A stretch of 51,189 bases of DNA from a virus. The notes beneath the pieces are model-generated. The model searched no databases. It saw only the letters and a program-made list of their open reading frames with translations, and was not told where the DNA came from. A program made the translations under genes and the position numbers. Location of the stretch: positions 1 to 51,189 of the IMG/VR virus record IMGVR_UViG_3300028043_000003; one strand, written 5' to 3'. Of this stretch, positions 6,897 through 36,534 are shown piece by piece. Within the stretch, counting starts at the first letter, position 1, and every line of letters starts with the position of its first letter.

Positions 6897-7269
6897 GGTA
6901 TGTCACTTGCCTTTTTTGCTTGTAGAGGAAACTAGAAGAAAACACTCGTTTTTTTGGTTTGCCTGCAAAAGTTGTGTCAAAAAGGCAAGAACTAAGGCCA
7001 AGTGGCATAAACGCAGAAAAGGAAACATTGGCAAATTTTCCCCAACGGATTGGCTCATCACCTTGCTTGAAAATGAGTTTAAGTGTGCTGTATGCAAGCA
7101 ACGCAAGCCCTGCCTTACCCTTGACCATGTAAATTCCATTGGAGCAGGAGGGCTTAACTCCTACGAGAATATGCAGCCTTTGTGTGAGGATTGTCACACA
7201 ATAAAAGCCAGAGAAGAAAACATAATACGTGACCAAAGAAAAAAACTAGAAAGGAAGCTTAGCCCATGA
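6883..7269 (+). CDS. HNH endonuclease
   Basis: An HNH nuclease of 128 residues if started at GTG 6883, with TGGAG 11 bases upstream; an ATG at 6820 in the same frame would give 149 residues but has no ribosome binding site. An N-terminal CxxC pair (CRVC) and a central CKSC are followed by the nuclease core: CAVCKQRK, then LDHVNS, then NMQPLCEDCH. It overlaps the preceding gene by 14 bases and the following ATP-grasp gene by 4. Unlike the later HNH genes it is not inside a tRNA. Probably a free-standing homing endonuclease. Confidence 0.8.
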   Translation: MSTCRVCHLPFLLVEETRRKHSFFWFACKSCVKKARTKAKWHKRRKGNIGKFSPTDWLITLLENEFKCAVCKQRKPCLTLDHVNSIGAGGLNSYENMQPLCEDCHTIKAREENIIRDQRKKLERKLSP

Positions 7270-8078
7270 AACCTGTAATTTTGATGCGTCCATCTCTAGC
7301 CGAAGAAAATGAATTTTCCATTGCTTCTAAACACCTACCAACCTTCAGGAAAAGATCCGATATTCCTCCTGGCAGTCTTGTGGTCGGCAGATATTCTGTG
7401 GTTCCATTTTATCTAGAACTTGAGGAAGACCTAGCTGCTTCTGGCTCCAAGCTTATAAATTCCTATAGAGAACACAGATGGATTGCAGACCTGAGGGAGT
7501 GGTATGAGGATTTTAAGGGAATTACCCCTAAAACCTGGTTTGATCTCGTCAGTCTCCCAGAAAACGGGGGTCCCTTTGTCCTCAAAGGGGAAACAAACTC
7601 AAGGAAATTCCACTGGAATACCCATATGTTCGCCAAAAATAAAAGAGAGGCAATGGAGGTCTACAGTAGGCTTTCCCAGGATTCCCTCATAGGGCAGCAA
7701 AATATATATATCCGGGAGTACGTCCCCCTTAGGAAGCTGGCAGAGGGCTTAAACGGCCTACAGGTGTCAGAGGAGTACAGGTTCTTTTTTCTTGACCGTA
7801 AGATAGTTTCTGGTGCGTTTTATTGGTCCTCCCACGTAGATGACTTGACAGAGGTTCCGAAGGCTGCTAACGTGCCCTTGGAGTTCCTGGAGGAGGTTAA
7901 AAATAGACTAGGTTGCAATGCTAGGTTCTGCGTGGTAGACATAGCTAGGAAGGCAGACGGAGACTGGACCGTAATCGAGGTAAACGACGGGCAGCAATCC
8001 GGCCTTTCCGAAAATAATCCAGAAGAATTATATTTAAATTTGAAGAAAGTTTTGTCCTTTTCTGAGGATTCGACATAA
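7266..8078 (+). CDS. ATP-grasp domain protein (DUF4343-like)
   Basis: A 270-residue protein with the layout of a small ATP-grasp ligase: a lysine strand (GPFVLKGETNSRK, ~105-117), a central REYVPL and EYRFFF pair, and a C-terminal metal/ATP site VIEVNDGQQSGL. The pattern resembles DUF4343-type ATP-grasp proteins of phages. Substrate unknown. A second, divergent ATP-grasp protein lies in the NAD operon at 22697. Start overlaps the HNH stop by an ATGA. It is the last protein gene before the long RNA island. Confidence 0.75.
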   Translation: MKPVILMRPSLAEENEFSIASKHLPTFRKRSDIPPGSLVVGRYSVVPFYLELEEDLAASGSKLINSYREHRWIADLREWYEDFKGITPKTWFDLVSLPENGGPFVLKGETNSRKFHWNTHMFAKNKREAMEVYSRLSQDSLIGQQNIYIREYVPLRKLAEGLNGLQVSEEYRFFFLDRKIVSGAFYWSSHVDDLTEVPKAANVPLEFLEEVKNRLGCNARFCVVDIARKADGDWTVIEVNDGQQSGLSENNPEELYLNLKKVLSFSEDST

Positions 8079-8348: not shown

Positions 8349-8721
8349 GGGGACGCACTGGTCTCGATAAGGGTACAGATGGAAATTGTCGTTAAGGGAC
8401 TTCTCCAAGAAGTCAGCGCAAAATATCTTGGAAAAAATAGATGCAGATGATGCACCTTTTGCTCTTGCTGCCTGATTCAGGTTAGATTTGTAGAGCCATG
8501 AATTCCTAGCGGATTGCGGCTAGGAAGGAGTGTTATAAACAGCAGTCAAATGCTAGAGGCTTAATGGTTTTCGAACCCCTGGCATAAATAAGAAAACTAG
8601 AGAACAGAGAATTTTGGGTCACTTTGAGATATGCCTGTTCTGACACCAAAAAAGTGAATAGTTAACGTAAACAAATTTCTTGAAAGACTTTTACACAAGG
8701 GTTCGACTCCCTTCGTCTCCA
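8349..8721 (+). ncRNA. ssrA: transfer-messenger RNA (tmRNA)
   Basis: A 373-base RNA with tRNA-like ends: GGGGACG (8349-8355) pairs with CGTCTCC (8714-8720), and a canonical T arm AAGGG-TTCGACT-CCCTT precedes the 3' strand. The 5' part has the usual tmRNA GGTCTCGATA-type D-arm region. Inside, a reading frame from a GCG resume codon at 8416 encodes AQNILEKIDADDAPFALAA then TGA, ending in the classical ALAA degradation signal. It would rescue stalled ribosomes and tag nascent chains, using the host SmpB since none is seen here. Confidence 0.88.
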
Positions 8722-17275: not shown

Positions 17276-17722
17276 ATGTCAGTTAAAAACCTTAGAAAAA
17301 TGACCGGAATGCCCATTGCAATGTGTGCCTCTGCCTGGAAAGCCTCCGGGGAGAACCTTGACAAGGCTGTGGAAATTCTTAAGTCCAAGGGAGCGGCAAA
17401 GGCAGAAAAATTGAAAGACAGGGATGCCAAGGCGGGATATTTTGCCGTGTACCGGCATCACGATGGCAAGAACGTAGCTGCTGTCGCCCTTGCCTGTGAG
17501 ACTGACTTTGTTAGCAAAACTGCTGAGTTTAGGGCCCTGGCTGATGAACTTGCCATGCACCTGGCTGCATCTGATGGCTTTACGCTCAAGGATGATTTTC
17601 TTGAGTCCGAGCTAATATCCAGGCAGGATAGGTCTACTTCCGTTAGGGAGGTTATCAATGAACTTTCTGCCAAATCTGGAGAAAAAATCGACATTCATAT
17701 CTGGTGGTCGGGTTCGATCTGA
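17276..17722 (+). CDS. tsf: elongation factor Ts, short form
   Basis: A 148-residue protein matching the N-terminal half of EF-Ts. A UBA-type helix bundle (VKNLRKMTGMPIAMCASAWKASGENLDKAVEIL) is followed by KAEKLKDRDAKAG and the nucleotide-exchange core VALACETDFVSKTAEFRALADELAMHLAAS. Bacterial EF-Ts is about 280 residues, so the C-terminal subdomains and coiled coil are missing or reduced, as in short mitochondrial or chloroplast-type forms. It should reload EF-Tu with GTP. AGAGGA precedes the ATG. It lies under the consensus promoter at 16931. Confidence 0.92.
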   Translation: MSVKNLRKMTGMPIAMCASAWKASGENLDKAVEILKSKGAAKAEKLKDRDAKAGYFAVYRHHDGKNVAAVALACETDFVSKTAEFRALADELAMHLAASDGFTLKDDFLESELISRQDRSTSVREVINELSAKSGEKIDIHIWWSGSI

Positions 17723-20930: not shown

Positions 20931-21083
20931 CTTGACAAGGTACTTTGGTGTGCTAAAGTCTAAGTGGCTCTAATAGAGAAAATAGTAGTAGGTGGCCAAA
21001 ATTCTGTGCTGAAACCAAACCGCACGGAGCCTGCTCCTAAAGATAGAGACAAAAATCTACCAATTAAGGAGTAAACAATAATC
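20931..21083 (+). promoter_or_regulatory. promoter and structured leader of the NAD operon
   Basis: TTGACA (20931-20936), 16-base spacer, TAAAGT as a -10. The ~125-base leader contains TCTGTGC/GCACGGA (7 bp) flanked by GGC/GCC, then AAGGAG 8 bases before the Nampt ATG. The leader is long enough for a metabolite-sensing element, but I cannot match it to a known NAD riboswitch. Confidence 0.5.
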
Positions 21084-22700
21084 ATGGCTACCAATAAAAT
21101 TCTACCTACTTTTCGTCGTCATCACATGGTTCCGAGGCCCATTTGGTCGGACGCATATACAATCAACGGCTACAAACTTGAAAGTGTTGAGGCTACCGAA
21201 AATTCGGTCTACTACGGCACCTATCGCAAGTTCCCCCTAAAGGCCGAACCTGCTGTTTATGAGCAGCATGATCTTCGTATTTTGTTTGCCGGATTGCAGT
21301 CTGTGTGTGACATGCTCTTTTACGAGCCCTACACTCACAAGGAAATTGATGACTCTGTAGAGTTTCTCAAGGGTCGCAAGGCGACGGCTTTTGGCTTCAA
21401 GGACTGGGAATTCCCGGAAGCCTTGTGGCGACGAGTGGTGGATGAGTGTGACGGTTACCTTCCCTTGAAGGTTGAGGGCATTCCAGAGGGCGGAGTTGTT
21501 TACCCCGGGGAGCCATGTATCCGTGTCTCTGCCACGAAGCCTGGATTTGGTCCTCTTGTTCCTTGGTTCGAGAGCACCCTCCTTCATGTGTGGTCGGCTT
21601 CTGAGCGCCTTACTGCTGCTCGCCACTTCCTTAAGTGGGCATACAACGAAATCCGCGAACTTGAAATGCCAAGCGTTTCGGATGAGCAGTGCATGTTTTG
21701 GGCTCGGTTGATGGTCCATGACTTCGGCGACCGTGCAGCAGCATGTCCTCAGGAGTCTGAATTTGTAGCCAAAGTTCATAACTACGTGTGGTTTGGTACC
21801 GACACTTTCCGTGGTGCTTACCAAAACTGGAAGAATGGCGCAAATCCTGCAATGGGTTCCTCGGTAAATGCTCTTGCCCATCGACTTGTTCAGGGTTTCG
21901 AAAATGAATTCGACTGCTACCGCCAGATGTACGAGGTTGCTGAGAATGGCGAATTCTTGTCGATGGTTGCAGATTGCTACGACTATTGGAACGCTGTTGA
22001 GAAGTGTCTGATTCCTCTAGCCCTGGATGCAAAAGCCAAGGGCAATGGAAAAATTGTCGTGGCTCGTCCTGATTCCGGCGATAGCGTTGAAATGGTTGTC
22101 GGAACGCTCAATCGTGCAAAGGCTGCTGGACTTATGAAGCCGGTGGAGACGAGGATTAATCGTCCAATGTACGAAAGTACCAATCTTCGATTCATTGTTG
22201 GAAACGGTGAAACGTTCGACACGATTCGTGCAATTATTCGTGCGTGCATTAATGAAGGCTTTGTTCCTTGGCGCTGTGGTATTTTCGGCGTTGGCGGACA
22301 CCTTCGTAACAACATTAACCGTGACCACATGAGCACGAAGTTTGCTTTGTGCGCCGTTGGCAAAGATAATCGTCCGGTTATCAAGCTTTCGGAAGAAAAG
22401 GGCAAGGGTACTCTTCCCTTGGTTAAGGTTTGTCGCAATGAACTTGCCCGCAAGAGCGGCATTACAGTTGCTCTACCTGGAGAGCCCTATGGTCAGGATG
22501 CTCTTGTAACCTACTATGACGGCTCTGCGGAGGCTCCTTTTGGTCCTGGCTTCCTGGACGACTTTAACACCTGTGAGGCAAGGGTCATAAAGGGCTTTGA
22601 TGAAATGCCAAAGGTAGCCGGTCATACGACTACGGCCGTGGATAATCTGGTGAAAGAAATAACCCAGAGGTATCGCAGCACAGTCCGCGAGCGCGTATGA
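21084..22700 (+). CDS. nadV: nicotinamide phosphoribosyltransferase (Nampt/NadV)
   Basis: A 538-residue type II phosphoribosyltransferase-fold enzyme that makes NMN from nicotinamide and PRPP. Visible motifs: ENSVYYGTYRKFP and QHDLRILFAGLQ near the N terminus, VHDFGDRAAACPQESE (the HDFG nicotinamide-pocket region), VVARPDSGD (PRPP site) and FGVGGHLRNNINRDHMSTKFALCAV. Length is normal for the family. The gene is more GC rich than its neighbours, with more C/G-ending codons, consistent with acquisition or strong expression. First gene of a five-gene operon. Confidence 0.95.
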   Translation: MATNKILPTFRRHHMVPRPIWSDAYTINGYKLESVEATENSVYYGTYRKFPLKAEPAVYEQHDLRILFAGLQSVCDMLFYEPYTHKEIDDSVEFLKGRKATAFGFKDWEFPEALWRRVVDECDGYLPLKVEGIPEGGVVYPGEPCIRVSATKPGFGPLVPWFESTLLHVWSASERLTAARHFLKWAYNEIRELEMPSVSDEQCMFWARLMVHDFGDRAAACPQESEFVAKVHNYVWFGTDTFRGAYQNWKNGANPAMGSSVNALAHRLVQGFENEFDCYRQMYEVAENGEFLSMVADCYDYWNAVEKCLIPLALDAKAKGNGKIVVARPDSGDSVEMVVGTLNRAKAAGLMKPVETRINRPMYESTNLRFIVGNGETFDTIRAIIRACINEGFVPWRCGIFGVGGHLRNNINRDHMSTKFALCAVGKDNRPVIKLSEEKGKGTLPLVKVCRNELARKSGITVALPGEPYGQDALVTYYDGSAEAPFGPGFLDDFNTCEARVIKGFDEMPKVAGHTTTAVDNLVKEITQRYRSTVRERV

Positions 22701-23434
22701 AGGTTTTCGTACAACGAAATCAGTTTAATACCGATTGGTTAGATATTAATTGTTTCTCGGCAGCTTCCTGGTTTCATCAAATGGGCTGGGAAGTTGTCCC
22801 TTTCGCCAACATCGAAGAAATTCGAAACAACATAACAAAAGAAACTCCTGTCGTTGGCGGGATTGGATATGTCAGGAAGGCAATTGAAATTCTTGGGTGC
22901 AAGCCGCCAGAACCAATTGATATTCCAGATTGTCTAGCCGTTTTTACTCATAGGAAAATATGGACGACTACCTTAGGAGATATTCACCTTAATGAGGATA
23001 AGTGGCCAGTTTTCATTAAGCCTAAGGTTGACCACAAGATTTTCACAGGGCACGTTGTTAAAAGTTTCTTAGAACTTCTGAAAACGTCCCATCTTCCAAA
23101 GGACATGCCAATCTTGGCGAGTGAAGTAGTTTTCTGGAAAAGCGAATACAGATGTTTCGTTCTAGACGGAGAACTCCTTGACGTAAGGCGTTATGCCGGC
23201 TCTGTGGAGTGGTACCCGAGAATTGAACAAGTTCAAAAAATGATTAAGATAGCGACCCCTGTGATGCCGGTAGCCTATTCAGTGGATGTCGGTGCCATGC
23301 TTGACTCCCGAGAGAGAATGTGGGATACTGCTCTCATAGAAGTAAATGATGGATTTTCTCTTGGAACCTATGGACTTCGTTCTCCTTTACAAGTTAAAAT
23401 GTTACTTGCCCGCTGGAAAGAAATGGTAAAATGA
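22697..23434 (+). CDS. ATP-grasp protein in NAD operon (DUF4343-like)
   Basis: A 245-residue ATP-grasp-type protein: WPVFIKPKVDHKIFTG (nucleotide lysine), EVVFWKSEYRCFVLDGELLDVRRY and a final ALIEVNDGFSLGTYGL metal site. Its start overlaps the Nampt stop by ATGA and its stop overlaps the next gene the same way, so it is translationally coupled. A role in ligating or modifying a nicotinamide-pathway product is inferred from context only. Confidence 0.78.
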   Translation: MKVFVQRNQFNTDWLDINCFSAASWFHQMGWEVVPFANIEEIRNNITKETPVVGGIGYVRKAIEILGCKPPEPIDIPDCLAVFTHRKIWTTTLGDIHLNEDKWPVFIKPKVDHKIFTGHVVKSFLELLKTSHLPKDMPILASEVVFWKSEYRCFVLDGELLDVRRYAGSVEWYPRIEQVQKMIKIATPVMPVAYSVDVGAMLDSRERMWDTALIEVNDGFSLGTYGLRSPLQVKMLLARWKEMVK

Positions 23435-24018
23435 CCGAATACGAAAAATTTCTTGCAAGGTTTGTACAACAGTACGAAAATCAAAAAAAGATTGTTGCCG
23501 TTATTTGTGGCGGAGGCGTGAGTTTTTCTAGGATTGCAATGACCCCAGGGTCAAGCAAAATCTTGGACGCAATCTGGATGCCTTACAGCGAGGAAGAAAC
23601 CATTTCCTGGCTTGAGAATCGCAACATGGAGTCTACTGCATTTCAAAATGCGGCAGTTGGAGGCTGGGCCGCAAAGGAATTGTGGGATGCTTTAGATTAT
23701 ATCCACAAAGAGAAATCTCTCAAACTTAGCATTACTGCTGCTCTCACAACAAATCGTCCACGAAAAGGAGATAACAGAGCATATATTGGAGTCGAGAGGG
23801 AATTTAATACAGGCGCAATTTATAAATTGTCCTTCGACAAACTTCCAGAAGAAATATATACCGACTCTATTGTTCCCTGGGCAGAACAAAAGATTTTTAA
23901 CAAGAGAAAACAAGAAGACGAAATGGTCGCGATGGTCGCCGTTAAGCTTTTAACGGGATTTGAAAAAGAAACACTACAGGAACTTTACGACAATGGACAA
24001 CTTGAAAAAGTGCTATGA
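23431..24018 (+). CDS. CinA/PncC-like domain protein
   Basis: A 195-residue protein resembling the CinA C-terminal (nicotinamide-nucleotide amidase) domain: KKIVAVICGGGVSFSRIAMTPGSSKI, then AVGGWAAKELWDAL and LSITAALTTNRPRKGDNRAYIGVE. The bacterial ESCTGG motif that holds the catalytic Ser is degenerate (VICGGG), so amidase activity is doubtful. Plants and some eukaryotes fuse just such a degenerate CinA-like domain to a nucleotidyltransferase like the product of the next gene, in the same order, which supports a joint role. Confidence 0.75.
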   Translation: MTEYEKFLARFVQQYENQKKIVAVICGGGVSFSRIAMTPGSSKILDAIWMPYSEEETISWLENRNMESTAFQNAAVGGWAAKELWDALDYIHKEKSLKLSITAALTTNRPRKGDNRAYIGVEREFNTGAIYKLSFDKLPEEIYTDSIVPWAEQKIFNKRKQEDEMVAMVAVKLLTGFEKETLQELYDNGQLEKVL

Positions 24019-24622
24019 ACAGTTAGTTGAAAATCCGTATGAAATTTTTATGATTCGTTCCGATGGGCAGATTGCCGAAAAGGAACAGCTTTTAAATATG
24101 GCAAATGAGGATCTGGGCGAGAAATTCCCTTCGCAAGAACTTCATATTTTTCCAGGATCTTTTAACCCTCTGCACTTTGGTCACAGAATTATCTTTAACC
24201 AAATTTTTTCCTTCAAAAAGGTGTTTGAAATTTCCTTGTCTAGGATTGGAAAGCCTAACCTCTCCCTTGAGGAACTAAAACAAAGACTGGACCAGTTTAC
24301 GTGGTATGCCCCGGTTGTTGTTACAGATGCCCCTAGATTTATTGAAAAATGTTCTGTGTTTCTAAACTCTGGTATAAAAAATTTCACCTTTCACATTGGT
24401 GTTGACACAATTCAAAGAATGAGGGATGACTATGGAGAGGTTGGAATTAGAGGACTCCCAGCCCGGTTCTCTGTATATGACAGAGACATGGGAAACGGTA
24501 TTCTAAAGTATCCAACCTCCGAGTTTAGGCATAAAATTTCAAACGTCAGCAGAAATCCATCTCAACCACCGGATGAATTTCTTGGATACTCTAGCACAAA
24601 AATAAGAAACTCCAAAAAATGA
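23993..24622 (+). CDS. NMNAT-like nucleotidyltransferase
   Basis: About 209 residues from ATG 23993 (AGGA 11 bases upstream); a TTG at 23960 is an alternative. The nucleotidyltransferase signature GSFNPLHFGH (HxGH) is followed by IGKPNLSLEELKQRLDQF, FHIGVDTIQRM and a final SSTKIRNS, as in adenylyltransferases that join NMN or NaMN to ATP. With Nampt it would complete nicotinamide to NAD, a two-enzyme route known to let phages withstand NAD-depleting defences. It overlaps the CinA-like gene by 26 bases. Confidence 0.86.
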   Translation: MDNLKKCYEQLVENPYEIFMIRSDGQIAEKEQLLNMANEDLGEKFPSQELHIFPGSFNPLHFGHRIIFNQIFSFKKVFEISLSRIGKPNLSLEELKQRLDQFTWYAPVVVTDAPRFIEKCSVFLNSGIKNFTFHIGVDTIQRMRDDYGEVGIRGLPARFSVYDRDMGNGILKYPTSEFRHKISNVSRNPSQPPDEFLGYSSTKIRNSKK

Positions 24623-24837
24623 CCAACGAATATATACAATTTTCTCTATCGAAGGAAGAGTCAGCAAAAGCTGTTATATGGGTAAAAAATCACGACTGTA
24701 TAAAGCGCGGTAAGCCCACCGGGGCGATTGGCGGAGGAATCACGTATGAATTAACCCCAACTTCCATTGGACTTATTTGTGTTGTAAAGTGTTGGTGTGG
24801 ACAAAAGATAGACATAACAGAATATGAAACCTGGTAG
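24619..24837 (+). CDS. hypothetical small protein, last gene of NAD operon
   Basis: A 72-residue protein whose ATG overlaps the NMNAT-like stop (ATGA). The centre is Gly rich (GAIGGGITYELTPTSIG), ending in VVKCWCGQKIDITEYE. No family recognised; coupling suggests a pathway-related or regulatory role. Confidence 0.65.
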   Translation: MTNEYIQFSLSKEESAKAVIWVKNHDCIKRGKPTGAIGGGITYELTPTSIGLICVVKCWCGQKIDITEYETW

Positions 24838-26858: not shown

Positions 26859-27128
26859 ATGGACGAACGACTTAAAAGCCTAAGTGACAGGGGAGCGGAT
26901 ATAACAATAAAACTCCGCAAGCAAAATGCCTTTGTGCAAATTAGGTATGAAAAAGAAACCTATAAGGCTTCTGGTGGAACCTTTGAAAAGGCAGTTGACA
27001 GGGTTCTTGAGTCCATTAAAACCGACTCCAAGAACATAAAGGCCAAAAGAAGAGAAAAAGAACATCTTCGTCAGGAAATCATGGAACAGATGGCAGATGA
27101 AGAATATGTTAACAGTAATGACTTCTGA
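26859..27128 (+). CDS. hypothetical charged protein
   Basis: An 89-residue protein from ATG 26859 (a TTG at 26841 is possible). An N-terminal beta-type region (ADITIKLRKQNAFVQIRYEKETYKASGGTFEKAVDRVLESI) resembles a small nucleic-acid-binding fold; the tail is a charged helix. It overlaps the next gene. Confidence 0.62.
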   Translation: MDERLKSLSDRGADITIKLRKQNAFVQIRYEKETYKASGGTFEKAVDRVLESIKTDSKNIKAKRREKEHLRQEIMEQMADEEYVNSNDF

Positions 27129-28008
27129 CATTATCCAAAGAATATTTGGTGCCACTGTAGAACCGCTGGATTCTGACTACCTCGACTATTTCCCTTTACA
27201 GGATGGCGATATACCGATTTCCTCTACCAAGACTACCAGACTTTCTCAGTTATCTGGAGGAAGGGCCAGGTATTTCCAGCTTGGAGAGGATTACAAAAGT
27301 TTCTTAATCAACAAAATAATGGTAAAGAATGCCCTTCCGCAGGGAGAATGGTACAAAAATAAGCTGACAGACAAGCAGATGAAACCCATTCTTGATTTCC
27401 TTGCAAAGGAAATCCCTATAGACGGCTTAAAAACGTCCGTGGATGACTTTGATACCTTCGCCTCCTCCGTGGTAGAAGATTTTGCTGTGATTACCAGGGA
27501 CCCGGCAACGGGCAAGGATGAGGCGACTCTCCTTCATCTGTGTGCTCCCTCTGACTGGAACGTAGATTGGGCGTTTGAAAAATCTTTTGACTATATTCAT
27601 AAAAATGTCAAGAGAGGCAATGGAAATCTCGTTATCCAAAGACCCGACAAGATGGTTGAGGGTCTAATAAAGCTGTCTGAACCTGTCCAAAGAGTTGGAA
27701 GCGTTTCCTTTAGGCCAAATAACTTTGTAAATAGAAATCTGAAATATGTTTCCGAAGACACTTGGACATGGACAGATGAGCAGAAGGCATTTATTAGATT
27801 TGAACGCCAGGTTGTCGTTCCCTTCCCGGAAATAAACTCCTTCATGTTGATTGTTAGGAGCTACTACAATAATCTGTTGGATTCAAGAAGGCTTCCTTTC
27901 GCCCTAAAGGCACTTGACAACATAAGTCCAGACGTGTATCATAAAGTGTTCCTTGGTAAGGAATCCAATAATCTTAGAAATTTTCTTCTCCTTAAAGCGC
28001 GGGTGTAA
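27097..28008 (+). CDS. DUF3445-like (heme-dependent oxidative N-demethylase-like) protein
   Basis: About 303 residues; starts at 27106 or 27118 are also possible. The order of motifs follows DUF3445: VEDFAVITRD, HLCAPSDWNVDWAFEKSFDYIHKNV, RVGSVSFRPNNFV, WTWTDEQKAFIRFERQVVVPFPEINSFMLIVRSYYNNL. Characterised relatives are heme-dependent oxidative N-demethylases. The substrate here is unknown. The stop codon lies inside the outer tRNA-Gly at 27999. An oxidative heme protein is rare in phages. Confidence 0.68.
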   Translation: MKNMLTVMTSDIIQRIFGATVEPLDSDYLDYFPLQDGDIPISSTKTTRLSQLSGGRARYFQLGEDYKSFLINKIMVKNALPQGEWYKNKLTDKQMKPILDFLAKEIPIDGLKTSVDDFDTFASSVVEDFAVITRDPATGKDEATLLHLCAPSDWNVDWAFEKSFDYIHKNVKRGNGNLVIQRPDKMVEGLIKLSEPVQRVGSVSFRPNNFVNRNLKYVSEDTWTWTDEQKAFIRFERQVVVPFPEINSFMLIVRSYYNNLLDSRRLPFALKALDNISPDVYHKVFLGKESNNLRNFLLLKARV

Positions 28009-28921: not shown

Positions 28922-29536
28922 ATGAAGCACTATCCCACAATTTCTAGTCAAATACAAAGAGATATCGACGTGTATGTCTTTGAGAAACTTGACGGCTCTA
29001 ATATCAGGGCAGAGTGGTCCGCAAAGAGAGGGTTCTATAAGTTCGGCACCAGGAAACGTCTTCTCGGGGAAGACGACCCTATGTTTGGCGAGGCCATTAG
29101 TCTGATTAGGAATCAGGAGGCTGTTCTCTCTAGGATTTTCAAGGAAAATAATTTTGAAAGCATTACAGCTTATTTTGAGTTCCTTGGGCAAAATTCCTTT
29201 GCTGGCCTCCACGAGAAAGAGACGCATAGGGTTGTTCTTATTGACGTAGATGTCTTTAAAAATGGGTTTTTAACTCCAAGCCAATTCCTAAAGGCATTTT
29301 ATGAAAGAGTGGAAATCCCCAAGTTTATTTACTATGGGAAAATAAACTACGAAATAGAAAATCAAATAAGATCCGGGACATTCGCAGGGGCTTCTTTCGA
29401 GGGAGTTGTTTGCAAGTCTGCCCCACCCAAGAAGTGGTCCCTGCCTATTTTATTCAAGGTTAAGAATCAAGCGTGGATTGATAAGGTCAAAGAACGTTAC
29501 GGCCATAGAAATGACCTTTTAGAAGATTTGTTGTAA
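28922..29536 (+). CDS. RNA ligase, Rnl2/DRB-type nucleotidyltransferase domain
   Basis: A 204-residue protein consisting of one covalent nucleotidyltransferase domain. Motif I EKLDGSN (~18-24, Lys is the AMP acceptor), motif III-like AYFEFLG, motif IV FEGVVCK and motif V LFKVKNQAW. Length and lack of an OB domain point to a small RNA rather than DNA ligase. It would seal nicks in RNA, for example tRNAs cut by host anticodon nucleases, and sits among split tRNA genes. Confidence 0.85.
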   Translation: MKHYPTISSQIQRDIDVYVFEKLDGSNIRAEWSAKRGFYKFGTRKRLLGEDDPMFGEAISLIRNQEAVLSRIFKENNFESITAYFEFLGQNSFAGLHEKETHRVVLIDVDVFKNGFLTPSQFLKAFYERVEIPKFIYYGKINYEIENQIRSGTFAGASFEGVVCKSAPPKKWSLPILFKVKNQAWIDKVKERYGHRNDLLEDLL

Positions 29537-29687: not shown

Positions 29688-30119
29688 ATGTTTAGACCGC
29701 AATCGAAAAAAAATCTACGTCCGCTTAAGGCCATAATCAAGGGATGCGCGGAAGAGTCTGCATTGCTCACAAAAAATGCAAGAAAGCTTGTCAAGGAAAA
29801 AAAGCAAGCTGTCCACCAGGAGAAAATCCGCCTTGGAATTTATACAAGACACTATAATCTTGTCTATGGATTTCTAAGAGGTATGGACTATAAACAAATC
29901 GAGAAAAATAGTAAGTCGAAGGCTATAGATTATTTTGGTAAAATTCCATGGGGTGTTGAGTATATTAGCATTGGAGCCTTGCACGATTTAATATTGATTT
30001 ACCAATATAATTCTGTTGGAAAATTCATAACTAAGGAAAATCTAAAAGAATGGATAGTGGATGGAAAAAGATTTTTCCTTACCAAGGATGAGAACAAAAG
30101 GAGCGTAAAACAACTATGA
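29688..30119 (+). CDS. hypothetical basic protein
   Basis: A 143-residue Lys/Arg-rich protein with GAGGAG 10 bases upstream. The composition suggests nucleic-acid binding; no motif recognised. It overlaps the Pth2-like gene by ATGA, so the two are coupled. Confidence 0.65.
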   Translation: MFRPQSKKNLRPLKAIIKGCAEESALLTKNARKLVKEKKQAVHQEKIRLGIYTRHYNLVYGFLRGMDYKQIEKNSKSKAIDYFGKIPWGVEYISIGALHDLILIYQYNSVGKFITKENLKEWIVDGKRFFLTKDENKRSVKQL

Positions 30120-30448
30120 AATTATATGTTGTTGTTAGGGAAGACCTTTCCCCGGGTTCTCAAATGGCCCAAAGTCTCCATGCTTTTAGGGAATTCGTCG
30201 AATATCACCCTGAAATTGAAAAAGAGTGGTATAAGACGAGTAACACGATTGTCATACTTGGGTGCAAAAATGAGAGTGAGCTTGTGCAACTTAGACTAGA
30301 TGCTATAGCAAGGAACATCAAGTTCTCTATTTTTAAGGAACCTTACCTTGAAGACTCCATAACGTCCATTGCATTTGAGCCCGGATTAAAGACCTCGGAG
30401 TTTTTATCCAGCTTAAAATTGGCAGGGCAATTTACCGGTAAAGGGTAA
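30116..30448 (+). CDS. peptidyl-tRNA hydrolase Pth2-like
   Basis: A 110-residue protein matching the Pth2 fold: KLYVVVREDLSPGSQMAQSLHAF at the N terminus, then SNTIVILGCKNESELVQLRLDAIARNIKFSIFKEP and TSIAFEPG. Pth2 enzymes (archaea, eukaryotes, some bacteria and phages) free tRNA from stalled peptidyl-tRNA. The second half of the catalytic region (D..RTQI) is replaced by LEDSITS, so activity is not certain. Fits the translation theme of the island. Confidence 0.75.
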   Translation: MKLYVVVREDLSPGSQMAQSLHAFREFVEYHPEIEKEWYKTSNTIVILGCKNESELVQLRLDAIARNIKFSIFKEPYLEDSITSIAFEPGLKTSEFLSSLKLAGQFTGKG

Positions 30449-30454
30449 TTGTTC

Positions 30455-30526
30455 GTTCCCATAGGCTAGTGGTGAGCCAACGGCTTCTAAAACCGGATTA
30501 GGAGGGTTCGATTCCCTCTGGGAACT
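30455..30526 (+). tRNA. tRNA-Arg (TCT) or suppressor-like (CTA)
   Basis: Acceptor GTTCCCA/TGGGAAC, D stem GGCT/AGCC and T arm GAGGG-TTCGATT-CCCTC are intact. The anticodon stem has only CGG/CCG, closing a 9-base loop CTTCTAAAA. Depending on register the anticodon is TCT (Arg) or CTA (amber). Related phage tRNA-Arg genes favour TCT. Confidence 0.6.
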
Positions 30527-30804: not shown

Positions 30805-32442
30805 ATGGCAAACAAAAACATTTTTAAGTCCGCTGGCACGACTCTTCCTGCTGCAGACACCACGAACTTGGCTGGAGGAAAAGCCTACAGCATGACAGAC
30901 AAACATGCTCTTGCACAGTTTGCCTGCACCGGTATGTTCGGAAATACCTTCTATTCGGATGCTGTTAAGCAGCTTGAGGAAATTAAAAGCCTTGTCAACA
31001 AGGTTGACACGGCCTTTATTTCGAGCCTTGCTGTGTACTCTAGAAATTCTGCCTTTATGAAGGATATGCCGGCATTTCTTCTGGCTACACTAGCCGCTAG
31101 GGACATCGACATGTTCAAGATTACCTTCCCAAAGGTAATGGATAACGGAAAGATGGTCCGCAACTTTGTTCAGATTATGCGTTCGGGTGTAACCGGTCGT
31201 AAATCTCTTGGAACTGCTCCAAAGCGCATGATTGAGAAGTGGCTGGAAACCAGAAGCGACAATCAGATTTTTAACGACTCGGTTGGTAATGACCCGTCTC
31301 TGTCGGACATTATCAAGATGGTTCACCCACGTCCAGAGACAAAGACGAGGGAAGCTCTATATGCCTACATTATGGACAAGAAGCACGATGCTTCTGTTCT
31401 TCCTGGCATCGTTCAGGAGTTTGAGGCATTTAAGGCTGCTATGGCCAACAAGAACCGTAATTTTGGAGAAGCCAAGATTCCAAATGTCAATTTCCAGATG
31501 CTTACGGCACTTCCTCTAGCTACGGCAGAGTGGGAGTCTATTGCCAGAAATGCAAAGTGGCAGATGACGAGAATGAATCTTAATACCTTCGCTCGCCACG
31601 GGGTTTTCAAGAATTCTGAAATTGCTAAGCTTGTAGCTGACAGGCTTCGTGACAAGTCTCTCGTTGAGAAGGCCAAGGCTTTCCCATATCAGCTTTTCAC
31701 GGCATACCTTAACACTGAACAATCTACAGACATTCCGCAGAGCGTAATAAATGCCCTGCAGGATGCTATGGAGCACTCTATTGAAAACGTACCAACGTTT
31801 TCTGGTAAAATCTTTGTCGGCGTAGATATCTCCGGTTCCATGGATTCTTCCGTGTCCGGTTATCGTGGTTCTGCCACCTCTAAAACCTCCTGTCGTCAGG
31901 TGGCTGCTCTTATTGCTTCCGCAATAAAGCGTAAGAATGAGGAAACTGAAGTATTTACTTTCGACACACAAGCTAAGCCTGTTAATCTAAATGGTCGTGA
32001 TTCCGTTATGACCAATGCTAGAAAAATTGCTACGCCTGGCGGTGGTACTGATTGCTCCTCCTTTGTTAGACTGCTTAACGAAAACTCCCGTAAGGGCGAT
32101 CTCGTGATTGTTGTCTCCGACAATGAGTCTTGGTATGATCGTGGTAACTATCATGGTCCGGCCACGACTCTTATGAGCGAGTGGCAGAAGTTCAAGAATC
32201 GCAATCCTAAAGCAAAGCTGGTTTGCATTGACCTTACGCCAAATACAACAGTTCAGGCCCCGGATGCAAAAGAACGCCTTAATGTAGGTGGATTCAGCGA
32301 TGCTGTATTCACCGTAATTGATGAGTTCGTTAAGGGAACTGGCGAACCTGAATATTGGGTTAAGAAAATAACAGAGTTTGATGGTGCTTCTCGGTCGGTA
32401 GCGTCTACGACGGAAACAGACGACGGCAACAAGCTAGAATAA
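30805..32442 (+). CDS. Ro60/Rsr-like TROVE protein
   Basis: A 545-residue Ro60 orthologue. The N-terminal TROVE HEAT-repeat ring (about 30-330) includes AGGKAYSMTDKHALAQFACTG and the helix LATLAARDIDMFK. The C-terminal von Willebrand A domain has an intact MIDAS (VGVDISGSMDSS, a Thr in GGGTDCSS, and VIVVSDNES). Ro60 binds Y RNAs outside the ring and misfolded RNA ends inside, feeding RNA to nucleases. AGGAG precedes the ATG. Two Y RNAs lie immediately upstream and two more elsewhere in the island. Full length and apparently functional. Confidence 0.95.
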   Translation: MANKNIFKSAGTTLPAADTTNLAGGKAYSMTDKHALAQFACTGMFGNTFYSDAVKQLEEIKSLVNKVDTAFISSLAVYSRNSAFMKDMPAFLLATLAARDIDMFKITFPKVMDNGKMVRNFVQIMRSGVTGRKSLGTAPKRMIEKWLETRSDNQIFNDSVGNDPSLSDIIKMVHPRPETKTREALYAYIMDKKHDASVLPGIVQEFEAFKAAMANKNRNFGEAKIPNVNFQMLTALPLATAEWESIARNAKWQMTRMNLNTFARHGVFKNSEIAKLVADRLRDKSLVEKAKAFPYQLFTAYLNTEQSTDIPQSVINALQDAMEHSIENVPTFSGKIFVGVDISGSMDSSVSGYRGSATSKTSCRQVAALIASAIKRKNEETEVFTFDTQAKPVNLNGRDSVMTNARKIATPGGGTDCSSFVRLLNENSRKGDLVIVVSDNESWYDRGNYHGPATTLMSEWQKFKNRNPKAKLVCIDLTPNTTVQAPDAKERLNVGGFSDAVFTVIDEFVKGTGEPEYWVKKITEFDGASRSVASTTETDDGNKLE

Positions 32443-34779: not shown

Positions 34780-36534
34780 TCATTCCTCTTCTTGGTTAAT
34801 TATAACTGCACTGCAGGTTAATACCAGCCCAATAACAGAACATGCGTGTTCAAGGGCATATCTTGTTACCTTTACCGGGTCAATAATGCCCTTACCAAGT
34901 AAGTCTCCATATTCGTGATTTGCGGCATCATACCCTAGTATTTCCTTGAAAACCATGGATGGCAATAGTGGATTATCCCACTCTATAATATTTTTGTGGC
35001 CTATATCCATTTTTCTTTTCTTTTTGAGACTAAGGTTATTTGTTGCCACAAAATCTTTTAGTTTGGCCACTACTATTTCCGATGTAGTGCCGGTATTTTC
35101 TACTATGGTCCTAAGGGGAAGTTCACAGGTATTTGCTACAACCTGAATGCCGGCGGCAACGTCCTCTGGAAGAGTTTTCCAAACTTCATCCTCTACCAGC
35201 ATTTTTCTAAGATGTAGTGCCGCATAAAAAAGAGCACTACCCCCACCAGGAACGATTCCCTCTTGAGTGGCAGCAATCGTGGCGTTAAGGGCATCCTCTA
35301 CTCTGTCTTTTTTTTCAAGGATTTCTACTTCGGTAGACCCACCTACCTTGATAACAGCTACGCCACCAGATAGTTTTGCAAGACGCTTCCTAAATCTATT
35401 TGTGTGAAGATCGTCCAAGGTGCCATCAGAAAGGGTATTTCTGAGCATTTGCATTCTTCCGGCTATGGCTTCTTTTGTTTTTGAATCCGAGGAACCAATT
35501 ATTGTTGTGGCTGTCCTACTGACAATTACTTTTTTGCAAGTTCCAAAGTGAGCAAGTTGAATATTTTTTAGCTGAGTCTCGGAGGACAGGTCAATTATTT
35601 TGCCGCCAATAACACAATTTATATCCTGTAAAATATCGGTTCTATTTTCCCCGTAGGAAGGAGCCTTGATTGCGCACACGCTTATTTTTTCCTTCATCTT
35701 GTTTACAATAAGAGTATGCAGTGCTTCTCCTTCGATTTCGTCTGCAACGATAAGGAGCGGTTTTCCTGCGCGGTAAACGGTTTCTAGAACTGGCACTATG
35801 TCATCCAGTGATGATATTCTCCTGTTGGTAAGAAGAATATATGGTTCACGGAGTTCACAAACCAGCTTTTCACCATTTGTTACAAAGTATGGTGACAGGT
35901 ATCCGCTTTCAATCTGAAGTCCCTCAACTACCTCTAGTTGAGTATTCACGCTTTTTGCCGGCTCTACGGTTATAATACCATCTGCCCCAACTTTATTGAT
36001 GGCATCTGATAAAAGTTCTCCAATTTTTTGGTCACCGTTGGCCGAGATTGTCCCAATTGCAACTATATCTTTTTCGCTGCTAACTGGAACGCAGTTTTCC
36101 TTTAGAAAGTCTATTACTTCCTTGCACCCTAGGTCAATGCCTTTTTTCAGGCCGATGGCAGACCTTCCGGTGGCAATCATTTTTATTCCCTGAGCCAGAA
36201 GCCCATGTCCAAGAACGGTAGCGGTAGTAGTTCCATCTCCAGATAATTCGTTTGTTTTAGAAGCAATTTCTTTTAGAAGCTCTGCTCCGATATTTTGCAT
36301 TTTATCTTTTAGGTTTATGGACTTTGCAACCGTTACACCGTCTTTTGTAATAAGGGGTGCCTTGTTTTTGTAGTCAATGATAACTCCATGACCACTAGGT
36401 CCCATTGTTGACCTAACTGCCTTTGCTAAAATGGTAGCACCCTTAAGGATTTCCTCGTGTGCCTTTTCCTCAAAAACTACTTCTTGCTTTTGAGACGAAT
36501 TAGTTGTCTGTTGGTGCTGGGGAATATTTGTCAT
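34780..36534 (-). CDS. groL: chaperonin GroEL
   Basis: A 584-residue group I chaperonin. ATP-site motifs [23 protein letters not shown] and [14 protein letters not shown]; apical domain [12 protein letters not shown]; equatorial [27 protein letters not shown]; family tail [16 protein letters not shown]. The C-terminal GGM repeat is absent and replaced by NQEEE, and the N terminus is extended by ~20 Gln-rich residues. It would fold phage proteins such as the capsid. Its possible GroES partner is the frameshifted gene at 26483. Confidence 0.95.

Follow-up and report, generated by a model that had tools for sequence, protein, structure and literature searches.

A Nampt, CinA-like, and nucleotidyltransferase core in a phage operon as a candidate NAD-rebuilding module

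Introduction

Five overlapping genes of a giant phage raise the question of how many of them belong to one pathway for rebuilding nicotinamide adenine dinucleotide (NAD), and what that pathway would make. The genes lie in the IMG/VR record IMGVR_UViG_3300028043_000003, positions 1 to 51,189. This 51-kb phage fragment as a whole is called the window here, and its genes include a T4-type terminase and portal, ~30 tRNAs, and a transfer-messenger RNA (tmRNA). An earlier note had described the five as an NAD operon encoding Nampt (P0001), an ATP-grasp protein, a CinA-like protein (P0003), a nucleotidyltransferase (NT; P0004), and a small open reading frame (ORF). The five coupled ORFs were confirmed, all on the plus strand, with successive overlaps of 4, 4, 26, and 4 bases. 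Overlaps of 4–8 nt also occur in several other gene pairs of the window, so the overlaps by themselves were not used as evidence.

The conserved core is composed of the Nampt, CinA-like, and NT genes, and is not a five-gene system. Phage NAD+ reconstitution by Nampt and a nicotinamide mononucleotide (NMN) adenylyltransferase (NMNAT) is called NARP2. The core is likely a NARP2-like NAD-rebuilding module, with predicted enzyme activities, in which a non-canonical NMNAT is joined by a probably NMN-binding, non-deamidating partner.

Conserved Core and Accessory Genes

Viral loci from wider searches were scanned with profiles. Nampt lies within 2 kb of the CinA-NT pair in eight distinct lineages, namely the window and the loci L006, L004/L005, L015, L122/L123, L125, L126, and L127, while the full five-gene order is confined to this phage and one near-identical contig. 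The nearest relative, L006 (320 kb), encodes Nampt (79% identity), the CinA-like protein (53%), NT (52%), and the small ORF (40%), and has no ATP-grasp gene. The order in L004 is Nampt (64%), an unrelated 86-aa ORF, the CinA-like gene (32%), and NT (40%), and that in L015 is a NUDIX gene, Nampt, and a fused CinA-NT gene overlapping Nampt by 1 nt. Of the five genes whose conserved co-occurrence the earlier note proposed as a check, the three core genes recur together in eight lineages; the ATP-grasp gene adjoins Nampt in this lineage alone, and the small ORF recurs with the core only in the nearest relative. The pair itself is a unit travelling often, not always, with Nampt, and the NT part alone occurs in three viral records (L017, L018, and L131). 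An ORF resembling A-type iron-sulphur carriers, with CGCG near its C-terminus, lies near the NAD operon in L006 (L006:9094-9426) and L004 (L004:3437-3835) as judged by eye.

The ATP-grasp protein matches Pfam R2K_2 (PF18299) with 139.5 bits against a cut-off of 26.2 (E 1e-40). R2K ATP-grasp proteins occur sporadically in jumbo phages and are predicted protein modifiers (PMC4431377, PMC7824862). The five genes could act jointly if this protein modified a nicotinamide nucleotide or an NAD enzyme by conjugation with an amino acid or peptide, and the 4-nt overlaps on both sides of its gene in this phage agree with that. However, the other seven lineages have Nampt-CinA-NT clusters without this gene, no annotated NAD neighbour was seen beside R2K genes in other jumbo phages, the window holds a second R2K gene (PF14243 R2K_3, E 1.2e-22) far from the operon, and the published prediction is protein modification (PMC4431377). 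Joint action of all five genes is therefore very improbable. On the cluster comparison and the R2K genes of other jumbo phages, the ATP-grasp protein was rejected as a pathway member, and its place in the NAD pathway, as claimed earlier, deserves hardly any credence. The small ORF matches phrog_26220 (E 6e-8) and, partially and weakly, Sinorhizobium phages; it is common to the window and its nearest relative L006 only, and so did not prove to be a general component. Both genes are probably passengers.

Nampt and the Nucleotidyltransferase

P0001 is matched by the Nampt/NAPRTase family in Pfam (E 1.6e-12), by the PHROG for nicotinamide phosphoribosyltransferase (E 5.9e-44), and by NCBIfam. Among solved structures, a PDB sequence search places it closest to bacterial NAMPT (E 2e-29) and human NAMPT (about 1e-21). 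The residues D213, H266, R328, D330, and R413 (P0001 numbering) are invariant in nine phage Nampts.

P0004 matches CTP_transf_like with an E-value of 3.5e-4, just over the Pfam cut-off. It keeps both NMNAT ATP-binding motifs, HxGH (GSFNPLHFGH) and the C-terminal SxxxxR (SSTKIR). Its AlphaFold2 (AF2) model has a predicted local distance difference test score (pLDDT) of 91.1, and the best PDB fold match is the nicotinic acid mononucleotide (NaMN) adenylyltransferase (NaMNAT) of P. falciparum, 5llt (E 2.4e-5). P0004 lies outside the NadD, NadM, and NadR families, and is quite likely the NMNAT of this route. The Nampt plus NMNAT-type route proposed before is upheld at the level of predicted activity, as the Nampt matches include conserved catalytic residues and the operon also holds the HxGH/SxxxxR nucleotidyltransferase.

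The strongest contextual evidence is a natural comparison among NadM-Nudix proteins. In L122 and L125, a NadM-Nudix gene follows the pair; its NadM part is without the final His of HxGH and without (S/T)xxR, and its Nudix domain is recognisable. In five phages with no pair detected at the loci examined (L132-L135 and L010), the NadM motifs of NadM-Nudix are intact. NadM motif loss next to the pair would be expected if the pair had taken over the NMNAT step, which argues that the pair supplies an ordinary NMN-to-NAD step. The L122 record also encodes a Nudix hydrolase and a phosphoribosyl pyrophosphate (PRPP) synthetase. In Rhizobium phage RHph_I1_18 (L132:2558-4464), the Nampt operon ends in a macrodomain (Appr-1-p processing) gene and adjoins NadM-Nudix.

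The CinA-Like Protein

P0003 alone falls under the cut-off of Pfam CinA (PF02464), with 13.9 bits against 23.5 (E 0.042), and the cut-off is passed by the bacterial fusions L047 and L060. The AlphaFold model of P0003 has a pLDDT of 91.7, and its 21 best PDB fold matches are all CinA/PncC (E 2.2e-6 to 8.5e-5), with 2a9s at the top (E 2.2e-6, template modelling (TM) score 0.62/0.70). The CinA-like profile found no match among PDB sequences, and the relation to CinA structures came from the fold search only. A profile comparison of the CinA-like family with true CinA gives a probability of 94.7% and an E-value of 5.6e-8.

In Agrobacterium CinA (AtCinA), the NMN phosphate is held by G46, S48, Y58, and R145, S31 and K63 are catalytic, and the S31A and K63A mutations abolish activity (PMC5384747). 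Moreover, E. coli PncC retains NMN binding, at 37-125 uM, when inactivated at Ser29 or Lys61 (PMC8231969). P0003 retains the phosphate-site equivalents G40, S42, Y52, and R159. The equivalents of S48, Y58, and R145 are invariant as Ser, Tyr, and Arg in 57/57 sequences, and in a second alignment in 14/14 viral and 12/12 bacterial members; G27 and T102 are nearly invariant across phyla. L039, L079, and L091 were dropped from the CinA alignment, their upstream part being non-homologous. The K63 column holds Thr, Leu, Met, Ser, Phe, Ile, or Gln, with Lys in no member and T57 in P0003. The Glu30/Ser31 pair is unconserved, being Ile-Cys in P0003 and Ile-Ala in L006. The CinA domain is degenerate, as had been noted: the general base Lys is replaced in all members, and the Ser31 column is variable. 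The simplest inference from these residues is a site that may still bind NMN and no longer deamidates it, and a non-deamidating NMN-binding partner is a fairly probable role for P0003.

The Pair as a Split Fusion Protein

With a profile built from P0004 and two phage relatives, 231 bacterial loci were matched, from which the best 80 were kept. Most of these 80 encode one ~370–410 aa protein with a CinA-like N-terminus followed by PGSFNPLHxGH...SSTxxR. The fusion family is present in Chloroflexota, Planctomycetota, SAR86, and other bacteria, and is sparse, with about four of 149 sampled Planctomycetota genomes carrying it. Phage CinA-like proteins match the N-terminal parts of the bacterial fusions in profile searches (E down to about 1e-16), and both domains are homologous to the fusions in the same CinA-then-NT order. 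On this profile evidence, P0003 and P0004 correspond to the two halves of a CinA-NT protein that has been split. The two are overlapping separate genes in the window, and form a single chain in the viral loci L015, L016, L124, L125, L126, L128, and L130. The earlier view of the CinA-like and NT genes as one unit is thus supported, since bacteria and several phages have the two as one fused protein.

In a tree of the NT domain, of moderate support and with many long branches, the viral sequences do not form one clade; most split forms group together, and the split L122 pairs with the fused L125. Because of that pairing, gene fission is suggested to have occurred more than once. The gene neighbourhoods of the bacterial fusion contain recurring neighbours that are lineage-specific and, as judged by eye, non-NAD. 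No annotated phage genome was matched by P0003 or P0004, and relatives of the pair surfaced only in IMG/VR, bacterial genomes, and, with fused-protein queries, uncultured megaphages. In PHROGs, the CinA-like part went unmatched, and the NT part had weak, unrelated matches only. The same domain order presumably occurs in a plant protein, whose homology to P0003 and P0004 is assumed, as is the relation of yeast Pof1 to this NT family. Pof1 is a reported NMNAT carrying T/HXXH and SXXXXR motifs (PMC13191266).

Proposed Mechanism and Alternatives

In the proposed route, P0001 would combine nicotinamide, freed by NADase attack, with PRPP to give NMN, and P0004 would convert NMN and ATP to NAD. P0003 would most likely bind NMN without deamidating it as the partner of P0004, a partnership proposed because both form one chain in many bacteria and several other phages. 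It may hold NMN and hand it over, or gate P0004 by the NMN level, and would so keep NMN in the amidated route. A fuller version, in which a dead NMN deamidase has become a subunit that captures NMN, shields it from the host deamidase, and delivers it to a dedicated NMNAT, is offered tentatively. The benefit would most likely be to replenish NAD depleted by host NADase defences, a purpose taken from published phage NAD systems.

Several points weigh against an NAD-rebuilding module with a non-deamidating NMN-binding partner. The pair occurs without a detected Nampt in six lineages, L014 (423 kb), L016, L120/L121 (371 and 494 kb), L124 (28 kb), L128, and LR745208 (485 kb). The pair is therefore not dependent on a phage Nampt; some of these records are short fragments. 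For P0004, the TM score of the best fold match is only 0.56, with phosphopantetheine adenylyltransferases (PPATs) close behind; because PPATs rank just after NaMNAT, NMN is assigned as the acceptor from context. The NadM comparison consists of two cases against five. In addition, most bacterial members have Thr or Ser in the Ser31 column, and the CinA-like part perhaps has an altered catalytic activity through the conserved K137 and E162.

That last point leads to the alternative that the pair makes or repairs a non-NAD nicotinamide nucleotide, with the CinA-like domain newly catalytic via Lys137 and Glu162. Both residues show almost no variation in the bacterial family, unlike in true CinA, and the jumbo phages that have the pair without Nampt would fit such a product. 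However, K137 is lost in four viral members adjoining Nampt (L015, L122, L125, and L126) and E162 in three of these. A new role for the two residues is possible, and not general, because both are missing in several viral members. The NadM motif loss beside the pair likewise indicates a plain NMNAT step. This alternative is decidedly unlikely, and the earlier suggestion of a product beyond plain NAD gained no positive evidence.

It is improbable, too, that P0003 remains active as an NMN deamidase (PncC), which would turn NMN into NaMN for P0004 to make nicotinic acid adenine dinucleotide (NaAD), leaving the last step to the host NAD synthetase. The CinA/PncC fold, the intact phosphate-binding residues, and the NaMN adenylyltransferase as the best fold match of P0004 favour an active deamidase. 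On the other hand, the Lys63 base is absent from all members and Glu30/Ser31 are unconserved, and the AtCinA mutants S31A and K63A are inactive (PMC5384747). P0003 could also be a mere structural or dimerisation remnant of a fused ancestor, with P0004 alone as a complete NMNAT, and a minority of the relatives, bacterial and viral, indeed show no detectable CinA part (L017, L018, L131, and L053). The invariance of S42, Y52, and R159 across phyla, together with the near-invariance of G27 and T102, fits an occupied ligand site better, and makes a bare scaffold unlikely. The preferred reading remains an NMN-binding partner of P0004.

Relation to Known Systems

Like NARP2, the operon has Nampt followed by an HxGH nucleotidyltransferase, with a predicted conversion of nicotinamide to NMN and NAD. 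It differs from NARP2 in its putative NMNAT, which belongs to neither the NadM-Nudix nor the NadR type and is instead the NT of the CinA-NT family, accompanied by a CinA-like partner. The jumbo-phage NAD systems in the part of PMC7824862 consulted comprise NAPRTase with NadM-Nudix and/or an NTase-kinase. They share the first enzyme and the kind of second step with the window operon, and the only NTases named there are Nudix- and kinase-fused. A text search of PMC7824862 found no mention of CinA. NARP1 (Adps and Namat) is similar in that Namat is a Nampt homologue. In contrast, P0001 is without the Namat signature GSX..TRD, having GGHLRNNINRD, and no PRPP-synthetase-like Adps gene (PF13793) was found in the window fragment or in the 320-kb relative (G014); on both grounds, a Namat identity and NARP1 were rejected. 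P0003 resembles the CinA/PncC NMN deamidases (PF02464) in fold and phosphate-binding residues, and differs from them in that its family has no catalytic Lys and an unconserved Ser, and is joined to a nucleotidyltransferase in place of COG1058. The literature searched, with most subscription papers beyond its reach, yielded no phage CinA-NMNAT module, and an earlier description is possible.

Phage NAD restoration would thereby gain a non-canonical NMNAT module that annotation tools have overlooked, and the CinA-NT fusion of several bacterial phyla would gain a testable role. The findings suggest a second use for a defunct NMN deamidase as a partner that binds NMN, and a direct prediction follows for phages without NadM or with a dead NadM. 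If the version with NMN capture and shielding is true, a substrate-channelling NAD module would be common to jumbo phages and many environmental bacteria, perhaps also plants, and would contain a ready-made, unexplored NMN site.

Other Features of the Window

The features of the window and of two related loci are collected in Table 1.

Table 1. Position, strand, length, and basis of the features discussed.
Feature	Coordinates	Strand	Length	Basis or remark
P0001, Nampt homologue, core gene 1	21084..22700	+	538 aa	Pfam/PHROG/NCBIfam matches, PDB sequence matches, invariant residues
R2K-clade ATP-grasp protein	22697..23434	+	245 aa	PF18299 E 1e-40; probable accessory insertion, outside core
P0003, CinA-like putative pseudo-NMN-deamidase, core gene 2	23431..24018	+	195 aa	AlphaFold fold, bacterial fusion profile match
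P0004, NT, probable NMNAT, core gene 3	23993..24622	+	209 aa	Motifs, AF2 fold
Small ORF	24619..24837	+	72 aa	40% identical ORF in L006, phrog_26220 E 6e-8
Possible sigma-70-type promoter 5' of operon, TTGACA-16-TAAAGT	20932..20959	+		Consensus scan alone, 10/12 matches; functional proof not implied
Second R2K gene	7266-8078	+		PF14243 R2K_3
tmRNA	8349-8721			
EF-Ts-like protein	17276-17722	+		
Haem-dependent oxidative N-demethylase alpha-like protein	27097-28008	+		
RNA ligase	28922-29536	+		
PTH2-type peptidyl-tRNA hydrolase	30116-30448	+		
tRNA, anticodon CUA	30455-30526	+		Rfam 52 bits
Ro60/TROVE-type protein	30805-32442	+		
Cpn60/GroEL-like chaperonin	34780-36534	-		E 3e-59
NadM-Nudix with lost NadM ATP-binding motifs	L122:6476-7363			
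NadM-Nudix with lost NadM ATP-binding motifs	L125:6533-7648			

The tRNA with the anticodon CUA is a possible amber suppressor. A TAG stop is present in 1/22 of the larger window genes checked, and no core gene needs TAG read-through. The Ro60/TROVE-type protein and the RNA ligase form an RNA-repair-like set amid the many tRNAs. The phage also encodes an EF-Ts-like protein, a peptidyl-tRNA hydrolase, and a chaperonin. The haem-dependent oxidative N-demethylase alpha-like protein is odd for a phage, and a relative of it lies 3' of the operon in L006/L008.

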